A stretch of 14,887 nucleotides of DNA from an uncultured bacterium (lineage in GTDB: Bacteria > Bacillota_A > Clostridia > Oscillospirales > Oscillospiraceae). The notes beneath the pieces are model-generated. The model was not told the DNA's origin. It saw nothing but the letters and a program-made list of their open reading frames with translations, and searched no databases. The translations under genes and the position numbers were made by a program. Location of the stretch: positions 1 through 14,887 of the forward strand of contig CAMEHJ010000005.1 in NCBI GenBank assembly GCA_945917385.1. Direction: 5' to 3'. Shown here in pieces: positions 2,787 through 13,673 of this stretch (the stretch's first letter is position 1; every line of letters begins with the position of its first letter).

Positions 2787-2843
2787 AAAACAAAAACCCG
2801 AAATCACGATGTGATTCCGGGTTTCTGGCACGCTGTAAGGGAT
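2787..2843 (-). repeat. Second copy of tRNA-Arg 3' end plus its terminator
   Basis: These 57 bp match 2962-3018 with a single difference (C at 2825 against T at 3000), at an offset of 175 bp. The copy holds the last 18 bases of the tRNA including CCA (2826-2843) and the complete terminator hairpin next to it. The rest of the tRNA is absent, so it is a tRNA 3' remnant and not a gene. Direct repeats of a tRNA 3' end are typical of integrase attachment sites, but no integrase gene is present here. Confidence 0.85.
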
Positions 2844-2961
2844 GTCGCTTGCATAGAGTTCTTCACCTTGAAGAACTCTATATAGGAAGAAACCAGTGTT
2901 TGCACTGGTTTCTGAAACTGCCGCAGGCAGTTTCGATTATGATTCGAATCCCACAGCGGAC
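2844..2961. other. 118-bp insert with three perfect tandem hairpins
   Basis: Three perfect hairpins follow each other: 13-bp arms 2853-2865/2869-2881 (loop CCT), 11-bp arms 2888-2898/2903-2913 (loop TTTG) and 9-bp arms 2914-2922/2926-2934 (loop GCA). The whole can be closed by an outer stem: 2831-2836 with 2953-2958 and 2839-2843 with 2948-2952, leaving AA unpaired. Positions 2941-2958 are an inverted, slightly altered copy of the tRNA T-arm and acceptor sequence. Short frames here are interrupted or read straight through the hairpins, so I see no protein gene. It could be a small mobile element, a structured RNA made by read-through from the tRNA, or debris of rearranged tRNA DNA. Confidence 0.7.
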
Positions 2962-3018
2962 AAAACAAAAACCCGAAATCACGATGTGATTCCGGGTTTT
3001 TGGCACGCTGTAAGGGAT
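2962..3018 (-). repeat. First copy of the 57-bp tRNA 3' end/terminator repeat
   Basis: This is the copy that belongs to the intact tRNA-Arg gene: 3001-3018 is the tRNA 3' end and 2962-3000 its terminator. It pairs with the copy at 2787-2843. The outer boundary is sharp on both sides, since sequence identity stops at 2843/3018 and at 2787/2962. Confidence 0.85.
2967..3000 (-). terminator. Terminator of tRNA-Arg
   Basis: On the minus strand, immediately after the CCA of the tRNA, AAAACCCGGAATCAC pairs with GTGATTTCGGGTTTTT around a short loop, and a T run follows. One internal mismatch is present. The same hairpin recurs at about 2792-2825 after the duplicated tRNA end. Confidence 0.85.
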
Positions 3019-3077
3019 TCGAACCCCTGACCTTCTGGTCCGTAGCCAGACGCTCTATCCAGCTGAGCTAACAACGC
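3001..3077 (-). tRNA. tRNA-Arg (anticodon ACG), CCA encoded
   Basis: A complete 77-base cloverleaf. Acceptor arms GCGTTGT/ACAGCGT pair fully if G1-U72 and one internal U-G wobble are allowed. The D stem is GCTC/GAGC. The anticodon stem is TCTGG/CCAGA with loop CTACGGA, which gives anticodon ACG, normally edited to ICG to read CGU, CGC and CGA. The T stem is AGGGG/CCCTT with loop TTCGAAT. Discriminator G73 and CCA are encoded at 3001-3004. The G1-U72 pair at the very end is a little unusual. Confidence 0.97.
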
Positions 3078-7256: not shown

Positions 7257-7670
7257 GTGGACAATAGAAAAAAAGAGCTTATCCGCGCGGTGAAATTCAC
7301 GCTGTTTTCGATAAGCGCAGGTATAGTTCAGGTTTTGTCGTTCACGCTGATGAACGAGATTTTCGCGTGGAGCTACCGGGTGTGCTATTTCACGGCGCTG
7401 GTTCTGTCCGTGCTGTGGAACTTCACGCTCAACCGCAACATCACCTTCCGCTCGGCAAGCAACGTGCCGATCGCCATGCTGAAGGTGGCAGGCTTCTACC
7501 TCGTGTTCACACCGCTGAGCACATGGGCGGGCGGCGCGCTCACGGAGCTTGGGTGGAACGAATATCTGGTGCTGGCGCTGACGATGATAACAAACTTCGT
7601 GACGGAGTTTCTGTTCGACCGCTTCATCGTTTTCGGAGACAGCATCGACACCGCGGTGAAAAAGAAATAA
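7257..7670 (+). CDS. GtrA-family four-helix membrane protein
   Basis: 137 residues with four membrane segments (about 12-32, 40-57, 72-92, 102-121) and the family signature WNFTLNRNITF between the second and third. A GTG start at 7257 is chosen because AGGAGG lies at 7244-7249, seven bases upstream. An in-frame ATG at 7230 that overlaps the previous stop would add nine residues and lacks a good binding site. GtrA proteins are linked to transport of lipid-linked sugars or to cell-surface polysaccharide synthesis. No glycosyltransferase is adjacent, so the substrate is unknown, and the connection to the repair genes may only be transcriptional. Confidence 0.88.
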   Translation: MDNRKKELIRAVKFTLFSISAGIVQVLSFTLMNEIFAWSYRVCYFTALVLSVLWNFTLNRNITFRSASNVPIAMLKVAGFYLVFTPLSTWAGGALTELGWNEYLVLALTMITNFVTEFLFDRFIVFGDSIDTAVKKK

Positions 7671-7674
7671 AAAA

Positions 7675-7748
7675 GGAACGGCACACAAGCCGTTCCCTGC
7701 GAAGAATGATTGGATTGATTGTAGGGAACGACCTGTGTGTCGTTCCCT
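7675..7748. repeat. Inverted REP pair (BIME-like), left of the RAYT gene
   Basis: Hairpin one is GGAACGGC/GCCGTTCC (7675-7682 with 7689-7696, loop ACACAA). Hairpin two is AGGGAACGAC/GTCGTTCCCT (7723-7732 with 7739-7748, loop CTGTGT). Read on opposite strands, the two are variants of one unit joined by 26 bp. The last base of the second hairpin is the first base of the RAYT stop codon. Hairpin one follows the GtrA gene by four bases and may attenuate its transcript. Confidence 0.85.
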
Positions 7749-8257
7749 TATTGCGGCCGGTTATACATCAGCATCCATTTATCCGGGTTGTTCTCAATAT
7801 ACTCCCAAATCTCATTATAGTCCTGCTGGTTGCGTATGATGTGGTCATAATATGATTTTTGCCACAGCTTTTTGTTAAAAGGCTGCAAAATGCCCTGCTT
7901 AACGCCCCGGATATACTCGTTTGTGGTCATAGTCTTCATGAATCGCATGATATCCGGTACAGAGCCGCCCGGACATCGCTCTTTTATATTAATAATAAAG
8001 TGCAAGTGGTCGGGCATAATAACATACTGGTCGATTGATATGCCTTCAAATTTATGGTGTAATTGAGCAATCCAATTACGAATGACCTGGTTTGCCGGAT
8101 TATTTGGAACGGCACGCAGGCCGTTCCCTACGGAGGATTTTTCCATGAGGAAAAGCGACTGACGATGGTGGGTGCAAAGGGTTATAAAATAACAGCCAAT
8201 TTCTCCGTAGTCGTAGCAATTCAATCTGTTTGGCTTTCTGATTTGTTTTTCCACCAA
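7748..8257 (-). CDS. REP-associated tyrosine transposase (RAYT, Y1/HUH family)
   Basis: 169 residues, typical of the family. The HUH motif is His84-Leu-His86 in MPDHLHFII. The helix LWQKSYYDHIIRN (131-143) and the later YIENNP (153-158) carry the conserved tyrosines; Tyr153 is the likelier nucleophile, judged from family pattern only. The start is TTG 8257 (GGGGTG five bases upstream) or the adjacent GTG 8254. Residues 44-51, GNGLRAVP, are encoded by a REP hairpin (8106-8127) that sits in frame before the HUH motif. The enzyme should bind and cut single-stranded REP hairpins. Base use is more AT-rich than its neighbours, in keeping with a mobile origin. The reading frame is intact. Confidence 0.9.
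   Translation of the reverse strand: MVEKQIRKPNRLNCYDYGEIGCYFITLCTHHRQSLFLMEKSSVGNGLRAVPNNPANQVIRNWIAQLHHKFEGISIDQYVIMPDHLHFIINIKERCPGGSVPDIMRFMKTMTTNEYIRGVKQGILQPFNKKLWQKSYYDHIIRNQQDYNEIWEYIENNPDKWMLMYNRPQ
8106..8127. repeat. REP hairpin inside the RAYT reading frame
   Basis: GGAACGGC/GCCGTTCC (8106-8113 with 8120-8127), loop ACGCAG, followed by CTAC as in the copy at 8325-8350. It has the same orientation as the first hairpin of each flanking pair, and its length keeps the RAYT frame open. Confidence 0.85.
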
Positions 8258-8287
8258 TGCAGCACCCCGCTGATTATTCTGGTTTTT

Positions 8288-8316
8288 ATTGTATCACAGC
8301 ATGGCTTGTCGCACAA
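8288..8316 (-). promoter_or_regulatory. Promoter of the RAYT gene
   Basis: On the minus strand TTGTGC (8316-8311) and TACAAT (8293-8288) are 17 bp apart, and TGA directly before the -10 makes it an extended -10. Transcription would start near 8281, about 25 bases upstream of the start codon. Confidence 0.6.
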
Positions 8317-8324
8317 TAAAAAGC

Positions 8325-8395
8325 GGAACGGCACACAGGCCGTTCCCTACAAATTTTTTATGATAATCGTAGGGAACGACCTGTGTGTCGTTCCT
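8325..8395. repeat. Inverted REP pair (BIME-like), right of the RAYT gene
   Basis: Hairpin one is GGAACGGC/GCCGTTCC (8325-8332 with 8339-8346, loop ACACAG). Hairpin two has left arm AGGGAACGAC 8371-8380 and loop CTGTGT, with a right arm from 8387 that has lost one C. The composition equals the left pair at 7675-7748; the linker differs in sequence (about 24 bp). It lies 16 bp beyond the YgjP-like stop codon. Confidence 0.85.
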
Positions 8396-8411
8396 TTGTG
8401 CTTTATAAAGC

Positions 8412-12830: not shown

Positions 12831-12854
12831 ATTATCCTCGGTTTAATTGTAATT

Positions 12855-13086
12855 TTACGATGCGTGACCCATGCGCTCTGACGCGATGCGCTTCATCGCG
12901 CGCACCGAGCAGACACAGACGATAATGGTCAGCACGTCTGCCGCGGGCGGTATCAACTATGTTGTAAACCGCCTTTGCAAGCAGCGCGAGCATCGCCGGC
13001 ACAGCCAGCTTTACGATAGCCCCGGAGGGCTTCATCTCTCCCAGAACGTACTGGGACTGCGTCTTTTTCTCACTCATACCTTTCAC
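12855..13086 (-). pseudogene. MATE efflux pump with large internal deletion
   Basis: The N-terminal 44 codons from ATG 13077 (SGAIVKLAVPAMLALLAKAVYNIVDT) match the start of MATE family transporters. After about 12946 the frame changes: a different frame encodes ADVLTIIVCVCSVRAMKRI and ends at TAA 12855-12857, which is the usual MATE last helix and tail. A normal MATE protein has around 450 residues, so over 1 kb of the middle is missing and the two ends are joined out of frame. Translation could start at ATG 13077 behind AAGGTGAAAGG or at GTG 13086, which overlaps the TetR stop. The gene would have been the pump controlled by the adjacent repressor. Confidence 0.8.
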
Positions 13087-13673
13087 CTTCTGATTACACC
13101 GTAAAGAATCAAATCCAGCGCCTTTTTACAGCGCTCGTCCCTCTGCGAGAAATCCTGGCTCCGGCTCGTCGCGTTGATAAAGTCCTGATACTGACTGAAA
13201 AGCTCCACAACCTCCGGCATGGAAACGCCGTCTCTGAGCGGCATATTCTCAAGCACACTCTCAAGTACGCCGATGTTCAGCTCATCAAACGGACGCTTTC
13301 TCTCTTCGATTGCGCCGGCAAGATTCGCCGGCGGCGATATGACGGCCTCGCAGAAAATCGCCTGATACCTCGGATTGTCATGGAAAAACGCCGCACGGGC
13401 AGAGAAATAGCTCTCAAGCCTGTCCTGCGGCGAACCTTCCCCGGAAAGCTTTCCCTGAAGAAACTCCGTCAATTTCAGAAAACACTCCTCAACGCAGGCA
13501 AGGTACAGCTCATCCTTTGTCTCAAAATAGTGGTAAATTATCCCCTTTGATATTCCTTCTGACGCGCAGATCGTGTTAATTGAACCCGCCGCGTAGCCCC
13601 TCTGCGCAAATTCCGCCACGGCGCCGCTCATAATGCGCTGCCGCGTCAGGCGCTTTTTTTCTTCTCGTTTCAT
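13083..13673 (-). CDS. TetR/AcrR-family transcriptional repressor
   Basis: 196 residues. The N-terminal helix-turn-helix covers about 31-50 (SINTICASEGISKGIIYHYF), which is the strong TetR signature including the conserved YHYF and the following KDEL. Residues 60-196 form the ligand-binding half, which is not assignable to a ligand. GAGG is six bases before the ATG. The stop overlaps the start of the MATE pseudogene, marking a former two-gene operon of repressor plus drug or metabolite exporter. Two GACC-type inverted repeats in its own promoter region suggest autorepression. The repressor frame is intact although its likely target pump is destroyed. Confidence 0.93.
   Translation of the reverse strand: MKREEKKRLTRQRIMSGAVAEFAQRGYAAGSINTICASEGISKGIIYHYFETKDELYLACVEECFLKLTEFLQGKLSGEGSPQDRLESYFSARAAFFHDNPRYQAIFCEAVISPPANLAGAIEERKRPFDELNIGVLESVLENMPLRDGVSMPEVVELFSQYQDFINATSRSQDFSQRDERCKKALDLILYGVIRR

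Follow-up and report, generated by a model that had tools for sequence, protein, structure and literature searches.

The window, that is, the whole stretch of 14,887 nt that was analysed, carries an intact tRNA-Arg(ACG) gene followed by a compact arrangement of repeats and hairpins (Table 1). Read on the tRNA strand, the order is the tRNA 3' end (S), an intrinsic-terminator hairpin (T1), part of the tRNA 3' end in inverted orientation (S'), a core of three hairpins, a second S and a second terminator (T2). An initial annotation had described a 57-bp block with the tRNA-Arg 3' end and its terminator, occurring twice with one mismatch, 175 bp apart, and a 118-bp triple-hairpin insert between the copies. 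We recovered both, as the 57-nt direct repeat lies at 2787-2843 and 2962-3018 (98% identical, one mismatch, start-to-start distance 175) and the 118 bp with the three hairpins at 2844-2961. The repeated block is real, but the hallmark of the family described below is the tRNA 3' end alone, from C56 to A76; the 18 tRNA nucleotides of that annotation correspond to 2826-2843, within the distal S. It did not include S', the imperfect inverted tRNA 3' end with which the insert starts on the tRNA strand.

Table 1. Features of the tRNA-Arg(ACG) locus in the window, with position, strand and source of each call.
Feature	Position	Strand	Source
tRNA-Arg(ACG), intact, CCA encoded	3001..3077	minus	ARAGORN; Rfam RF00005 62.1 bits
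Proximal S, last 21 nt of tRNA-Arg (C56-A76)	3001-3021	minus	
T1, intrinsic-terminator hairpin immediately 3' of the tRNA	2966..3002	minus	terminator scan; repeat search
S', partial tRNA 3' end, inverted	2943..2959	minus	sequence reading; family S' profile
S', T-arm part GGGATTCGAA	2943-2952	minus	
S', acceptor remnant CCGCTGT	2953-2959	minus	
Core hairpin 1, stem ends GCC, loop, GGC	2914..2934	minus	sequence, fold, alignment, covariance model
Core hairpin 2, apex CCAGTGCAAACACTGG	2888..2913	minus	sequence, fold, alignment, covariance model
Core hairpin 3, 13-bp perfect stem	2853..2881	minus	inverted-repeat search
Complete type-A unit S'-core-S	2828..2961, 134 bp	minus	covariance models R1, R2
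Distal S, repeat of the tRNA 3' end with an additional base behind A58	2826..2847	minus	sequence, repeats, alignment
T2, terminator 3' of the distal S, 97% like T1	2791..2827	minus	repeats; terminator scan

Both T1 and T2 of the window pass as intrinsic terminators in the terminator scan. The fold is strong as RNA (z -11.6 against shuffles, with 0/100 shuffles equally good) and as single-stranded DNA (z -9.8 for the minus strand and -9.1 for the plus strand). Two covariance models, R1 from 15 type-A units and R2 from 98 copies, score the window unit at 118.9 bits and at 106.1 bits (E 1.7e-27), respectively, the window sequence being among the training sequences of both. No second strong R2 match was found within the 14,887 nt, and only the tRNA reaches gathering score in the Rfam scan of the window. 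As in the islands that Islander detects, an intact tDNA and a direct-orientation 3' fragment bound the insert; no integrase gene lies within these 118 bp, and the unit of 134 bp has neither the integrase inside nor the length of at least 2 kb that Islander also asks for.

Elsewhere in the window, a Y1_Tnp gene (RAYT-like, IS200-type) lies at 7748-8257 on the minus strand, bracketed by at least five related, REP-like palindromes (GTAGGGAACGACCTGTGTGTCGTTCC) within 7665-8404. A TetR-type regulator gene was found at 13083-13673. Behind it comes a short ORF (12832-13086) that we take to resemble the N-terminus of a MATE-type transporter at its start before it diverges, and that may be a broken gene.

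Comparison of the tRNA-Arg locus across relatives, as the initial annotation had proposed, revealed both occupied and empty sites. Through the neighbouring gene ymdB (Pfam YmdB), 80 loci were fetched from metagenome-assembled genomes of Oscillospiraceae and other Clostridia, and we counted the 48 (window included) that have a CCA-bearing tRNA-Arg(ACG) and no less than 200 nt of sequence beyond it; three loci were excluded from this count, two without CCA and one too short. A second tRNA tail (17 nt, at most 2 mismatches) lies no more than 450 nt away in 21/48 of these orthologous loci and is missing from 27/48, and shuffled tRNA tails gave 0 matches in 2400 trials. Four of the 21 occupied loci have two S copies, that is, tandem arrays; a trace of S' is retained in 5 of the 27 loci without a second S, some of these five being visibly decayed units. 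We distinguished at least four core kinds at this locus, A (that of the window), B, C and D, in a common S-T1-S'-core-S frame, and S' is present in 66/68 tRNA loci having an S copy. An ordinary integrase-bearing element was also observed at tRNA-Arg(ACG) (L023:2356-3768), in a genome whose site is without the small unit.

The terminators indicate the place of entry. At tRNA-Ser(GGA), whose end was found in 11/16 genomes searched, the native terminator comes straight after CCA in two empty loci (L197, L203), and a near-identical one follows the distal S in two occupied loci (L202, L199), where T1 is unrelated. Likewise, the terminator after the distal S in two kind-B loci (L012, L017) is the one that stands directly after the tRNA in L001. 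These empty and occupied sites indicate that T1-S'-core entered 3' of the tRNA and ahead of the tRNA's native terminator, doubling the tRNA 3' end. Other tRNA-Ser(GGA) loci are empty with a different terminator (L204), carry a kind-D core (L200) or hold a decayed unit (L205). An origin of T1 by fold-back copying of the native terminator was discarded, since T1 and T2 are unlike at tRNA-Ser(GGA). The genomes sampled, one per species, are mostly incomplete metagenome-assembled genomes, and among them no excision product, circle or strain pair differing by the element alone was seen.

A search of related genomes for the insert, also proposed by the initial annotation, showed that the core recurs at other tRNAs. 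R1 matched 13 of 16 genomes, with up to 17 matches per genome; those 13 had been picked for holding a type-A unit and the 3 without match for other core kinds. R2 matches were found in 54/101 genomes of one genus (1-18 copies each, 262 in total) and in 3/295 genomes across the order, and R1 matches in 9/150 genomes across the family, the starting genome being included in the last two counts; these larger searches, in genus, order and family, used stricter filters that lose weak matches. The counts indicate that the core of kind A occurs chiefly in one genus, within which its distribution is patchy. The possibility that all relatives carry one fixed arrangement, with no empty site and an insert found nowhere else, fails on every point. 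Like a MITE, the unit is short, gene-less and present in several copies per genome. In 16 loci and the window, tRNA/tmRNA are the only Rfam families at gathering score. Phage and plasmid records gave 0 matches at E 1e-3; among viral contigs two patterns gave 0 matches and one short pattern 10, with a model match in one contig (L230).

Concerning the targets, 65 of 120 copies collected for this analysis lie no more than 60 nt from a called tRNA 3' end, and 20 anticodons are represented. Among the other 55 are second units of tandems, contig ends and units next to tmRNA; 39 of the 55 still close with the tail of a tRNA or tmRNA (0/1100 in a shuffled-tail control), and a tRNA tail stands before T1 in 5 of the remaining 16. 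Units adjoining tmRNA (identified by Rfam) were found in L103 and L143. A profile of the ends was made from 57 of 64 copies by a CCA-bearing tRNA, with 19 anticodons and S of at least 14/21; the other 7, with S below 14/21, are decayed and were excluded. Identity of S to its own tRNA rises abruptly from 0.02 at position 55 to 0.81 at 56 and lies at 0.84-1.00 over 57-73; across 61-72 it reaches 0.956 with the own tRNA versus 0.455 with other tRNAs. S' is the complement of positions 54 to about 66, with identities of 0.98-1.00 at 54-60, 0.96-0.98 at 61-63 and 0.74, 0.79 and 0.63 at 64-66, against 0.09 at 53. Beyond the T-stem, S' scores 9.37 with its own tRNA versus 7.48±0.23 with others on average, the own tRNA being strictly best for this outer part in only 8/57 copies; in the best cases the inverted repeat extends without a break from T1 across CCA to the acceptor of the own tRNA.

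We regard it as established that the window carries one member of a family of non-coding inserts, matched to their targets, at the 3' ends of tRNA and tmRNA genes. In these, a T1-S'-core module stands between an intact tRNA and its native terminator, at many different tRNAs, patchily and sometimes in tandem, with ends that fit the adjoining tRNA in every case. How the ends come to match each tRNA is the most surprising part. We also found a core lying right in the T-loop of a fragment of tRNA-Arg (L094:1501-1641; L005:3023-3163), with neither T1 nor S'; the intact tRNA-Arg and its unit are about 2.3 kb away.

Compensatory double changes occur in 20/35 predicted pairs of a MAFFT alignment built without structure. 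Over 98 copies, in an alignment fitted to the model and so biased towards it, 97.2% of the cells pair and 818 cells show double changes versus 200 in shuffles; this covariation signal is lost when partners are slid by 1-3 columns. G-U cells amount to 0.7, 0.6 and 1.9% in hairpins 1-3, where mismatches amount to 1.2, 1.2 and 2.0%, and the S'/S stem has 3.6% G-U and 4.7% mismatches. For 69 distinct tRNAs from the same loci, G-U reaches 7.2% in the acceptor and 14.2% in the T stems, with 1.0 and 2.3% mismatches. G-T is treated nearly as a mismatch, which suggests that selection, or a copying process, acts on DNA hairpins; judging from these sequences, selection on the core hairpins seems to act on DNA.

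Among the 57 profile copies, cores at different tRNAs of the same genome are more alike than in permutations (0.676 vs 0.621±0.017, p 0.002), and cores at the same tRNA of different genomes are not (p 0.18). T1 is more similar at the same tRNA (0.591 vs 0.543±0.010 permuted, 0/2000 permutations as high), with a value of 0.554 within the same genome (p 0.02); tRNA labels in these tests were those of ARAGORN. The pattern suggests that the core is the travelling part, by movement or gene conversion, and that S, S' and T1 go with the tRNA. Only 5/57 copies, that of the window among them, have a T1 and a T2 with a likeness of 85% or more. Since the locus with the closest core found to that of the window (L036) has a similar T1 and a different T2, we take the near-identity of T1 and T2 in the window as the probable result of a later local exchange between its two S-T blocks.

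Several units have unusual surroundings. Upstream of three units in L112 and L120, a common sequence with the end ATCTTAATGACATTG stands in place of T1's left arm; by our reading an insertion has replaced part of T1 there, as though the T1 hairpin were preferred by an insertion sequence. A protein with two GNAT acetyltransferase domains is encoded between two tRNA-Ser(GGA) units (L136:1672-2670), the second of which has decayed ends, and looks like a gene carried between units. Behind the tRNA-Arg of L020 (5469-5545), about 600 bp with small ORFs are followed by a kind-D-like closing hairpin and a distant tRNA tail; the same gene sequence occurs in the neighbouring stretch of L074, beside a shrunken unit.

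As to candidate movers, the viral contig L230 contains a phage-satellite-like element of about 8 kb that encodes a tyrosine integrase (PF00589, PF14659; phrog_1), a repressor-like protein and terminase small subunits. It is flanked by an intact tRNA-Ser(GGA) on one side and by the segment TTCGAATCTCTCCATCTCCGCCA on the other, after which come T1, S' and a type-A core interrupted by the contig end. The element has its attachment at tRNA segment 54-76 and brings in its own terminator. Its ends contain neither S' nor the cloverleaf core, and R2 found no match in 20 further integrase loci, so that the mini-element is no shortened version of these integrase elements; the ends shared with an autonomous element that define a MITE were found neither in L230 nor in these 20 loci. 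In 16/20 of the loci fetched, the integrase gene ends 96-315 bp from a tRNA 3' end that faces it (Ser, Gln, Trp, Leu, Val; the distances in L239 and L241 derive from reported gene positions). L249 contains an integrase element that ends at a tRNA-Trp piece at the contig end, L250 has a tRNA-Ser tail alone, and no tRNA end was found near the integrase in L233 and L245. In L247, a kind-C unit lies between tRNA-Val and an integrase-bearing element. As the arrangements in L230 and L247 show, small and integrase-bearing elements share one attachment site, in both orders.

Relatives of the L230 integrase are present in 49/101 genomes of the genus. Its distribution speaks against a simple helper link, as it is found in 27/54 genomes with elements and 22/47 without (p 0.84); at E 1e-50 it is absent from four genomes with 9-18 copies. 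Tyrosine recombinases overall (PF00589) occur in 99/101 genomes, so their presence is uninformative. Reverse transcriptase (PF00078), for which the tRNA 3' end might act as primer, was likewise discarded (27/101 genomes; 14/54 with elements, 13/47 without) and is missing from six genomes with 9-17 copies. A search for a recurrent mover gene beside the elements, by ORF clusters over 87 loci, gave no common mover among the 25 largest, which are read-through of elements or tRNAs, or neighbours of a single tRNA locus. In L128 and in contig C85 of G010, a 47-nt tRNA-Thr 3' fragment with its unit has a tyrosine integrase gene about 350 bp upstream; here an ordinary island using the anticodon-loop sub-site apparently displaced the tRNA end together with the unit.

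In our view, the unit in the window is probably a copy of a miniature integrative element that is non-coding and site-specific for tRNA/tmRNA 3' ends. The initial annotation had offered a minimal non-autonomous element, the footprint of an excised island or a local duplication, and the first of these agrees best with the core beside other tRNAs, the occupied and empty sites and the tandems; from the empty sites, the arrays and the patchiness we infer that the element is mobile. A recombinase may exchange strands in the T-loop region, where the copy starts at C56, and such an exchange would leave the tRNA intact and supply a new terminator. S' and S could pair in folded DNA and thereby rebuild the T-arm recognition duplex, like the two arms of an integron attC. 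The enzyme would act in trans, its most plausible source being phage-like elements whose tyrosine integrases attach at this tRNA segment too. Phage Ms6 (PMC1762012) is the precedent for a T-loop integrase that is retargetable to other tRNAs by altering the attP core. A plain integrase exchange does not account for cores at differing tRNAs with fitting ends. Tentatively, tRNA and tmRNA genes of these bacteria might be general docking sites for folded DNA cassettes, among which a small cloverleaf core is passed within a genome, S and S' being remade from each target; the integration chemistry would then rewrite the element's ends to suit the target.

Other explanations have to be weighed against this element. 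A folded-single-strand cassette system of its own, with an attC-like cloverleaf, T-arms acting like attI, a dedicated recombinase and S/S' re-templated on the target tRNA, would fit the S'/S pairing and the DNA-type covariation, the presence of S' at nearly all loci with an S copy, a core similarity that follows the genome while T1 follows the tRNA, the inverted repeat that in several copies continues beyond T1 and takes in the own tRNA's acceptor and CCA, and the larger units with genes between S copies (the tandem GNAT protein of L136; L020). However, the dedicated recombinase was not found, gene conversion among the cores of one genome would yield identical statistics, and the boundary base C56 leaves GTTRRRY unmatched; we hold such a system to be rather unlikely. 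Improbable, in turn, is a structured RNA gene or tRNA-processing element under cis selection. The strong fold speaks for it, as do the constant location of the unit downstream of the gene, on the strand of the tRNA, and its CCA end; nevertheless, G-U pairs in the hairpins are as rare as mismatches, a terminator stands between tRNA and unit, presence is patchy, and in 16 loci and the window Rfam detects nothing besides tRNA/tmRNA at gathering score.

Very improbable is also a purely local event at this single tRNA, either a duplication or the footprint of a lost island. The near-identical T1 and T2 of the window suggest a local exchange between S-T blocks, and an ordinary integrase element does exist at the same tRNA in L023, but the core recurs and covaries at many tRNAs of many genomes, and its occurrence in more than half of the genomes of the genus largely refutes this explanation. 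Of the initial proposals, local duplication accounts for T1 = T2 in the window and for nothing beyond that, and the excised-island footprint is left unsupported by a core that is conserved and covarying across 98 copies. DNA hairpins, which are involved in both, and the Y1_Tnp gene of the window could point to a REP-like element moved by a Y1 (RAYT-type) transposase; this is the least credible of the alternatives, and hardly to be expected, as Y1_Tnp is present in 6/11 genomes, while G005, G008 and G010, with 7, 8 and 9 matches to the element, gave no hit at E 1e-4 (these genomes may be incomplete), and the RAYT gene of the window has its own palindromes, unrelated to the unit.

Compared with known systems, the miniature element resembles several. 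In integron attC sites, inverted arms pair in single-stranded DNA, structure counts over sequence and tandem arrays form at a fixed site, with GTTRRRY as crossover motif. The mini-element likewise has paired inverted arms, structure conserved over sequence and tandem arrays at a fixed site, whereas it differs from integron cassettes in being usually gene-less, in its three-hairpin cloverleaf, in targeting the tRNA 3' end and in ends that vary with the tRNA; no GTTRRRY site is present at the unit boundary, where a pyrimidine (C56) occupies the position needing R. MITEs and REP/REPIN are also short, non-coding, multicopy and palindromic, and are presumably moved in trans; unlike them, the mini-element has a site confined to the 3' ends of tRNA/tmRNA; the search gave no autonomous partner sharing its ends, and the Y1 transposase is dispensable. 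With tRNA-targeted islands and phage satellites, moved by tyrosine integrases, it shares the direct duplication of the tRNA 3' end, the intact tRNA, an own terminator and tandem accretion, but it measures about 140-190 bp, has no gene or integrase, and has the inverted T-arm S' and the three-hairpin core. A duplication starting in the T-loop is also found at the sub-site of phage Ms6, according to PMC1762012. In the account of Islander (PMC4383910), filters discard candidates below 2 kb or without integrase, so that scans of this type, as described there, would not list these units. In the open-licence literature that we searched, we found no description of such elements.

If the element is mobile, it would be an integrative element ten-fold below the 2-kb floor of tRNA-island scans, one that occupies many tRNA types per genome with ends matched to each target. 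This raises a testable question, namely how the same core gets into different tRNA genes and yet has the correct tRNA ends each time. A mobile unit would also constitute a natural, very small insertion module that preserves the tRNA. Furthermore, the family accounts for puzzling repeats beside tRNA genes of gut bacteria.
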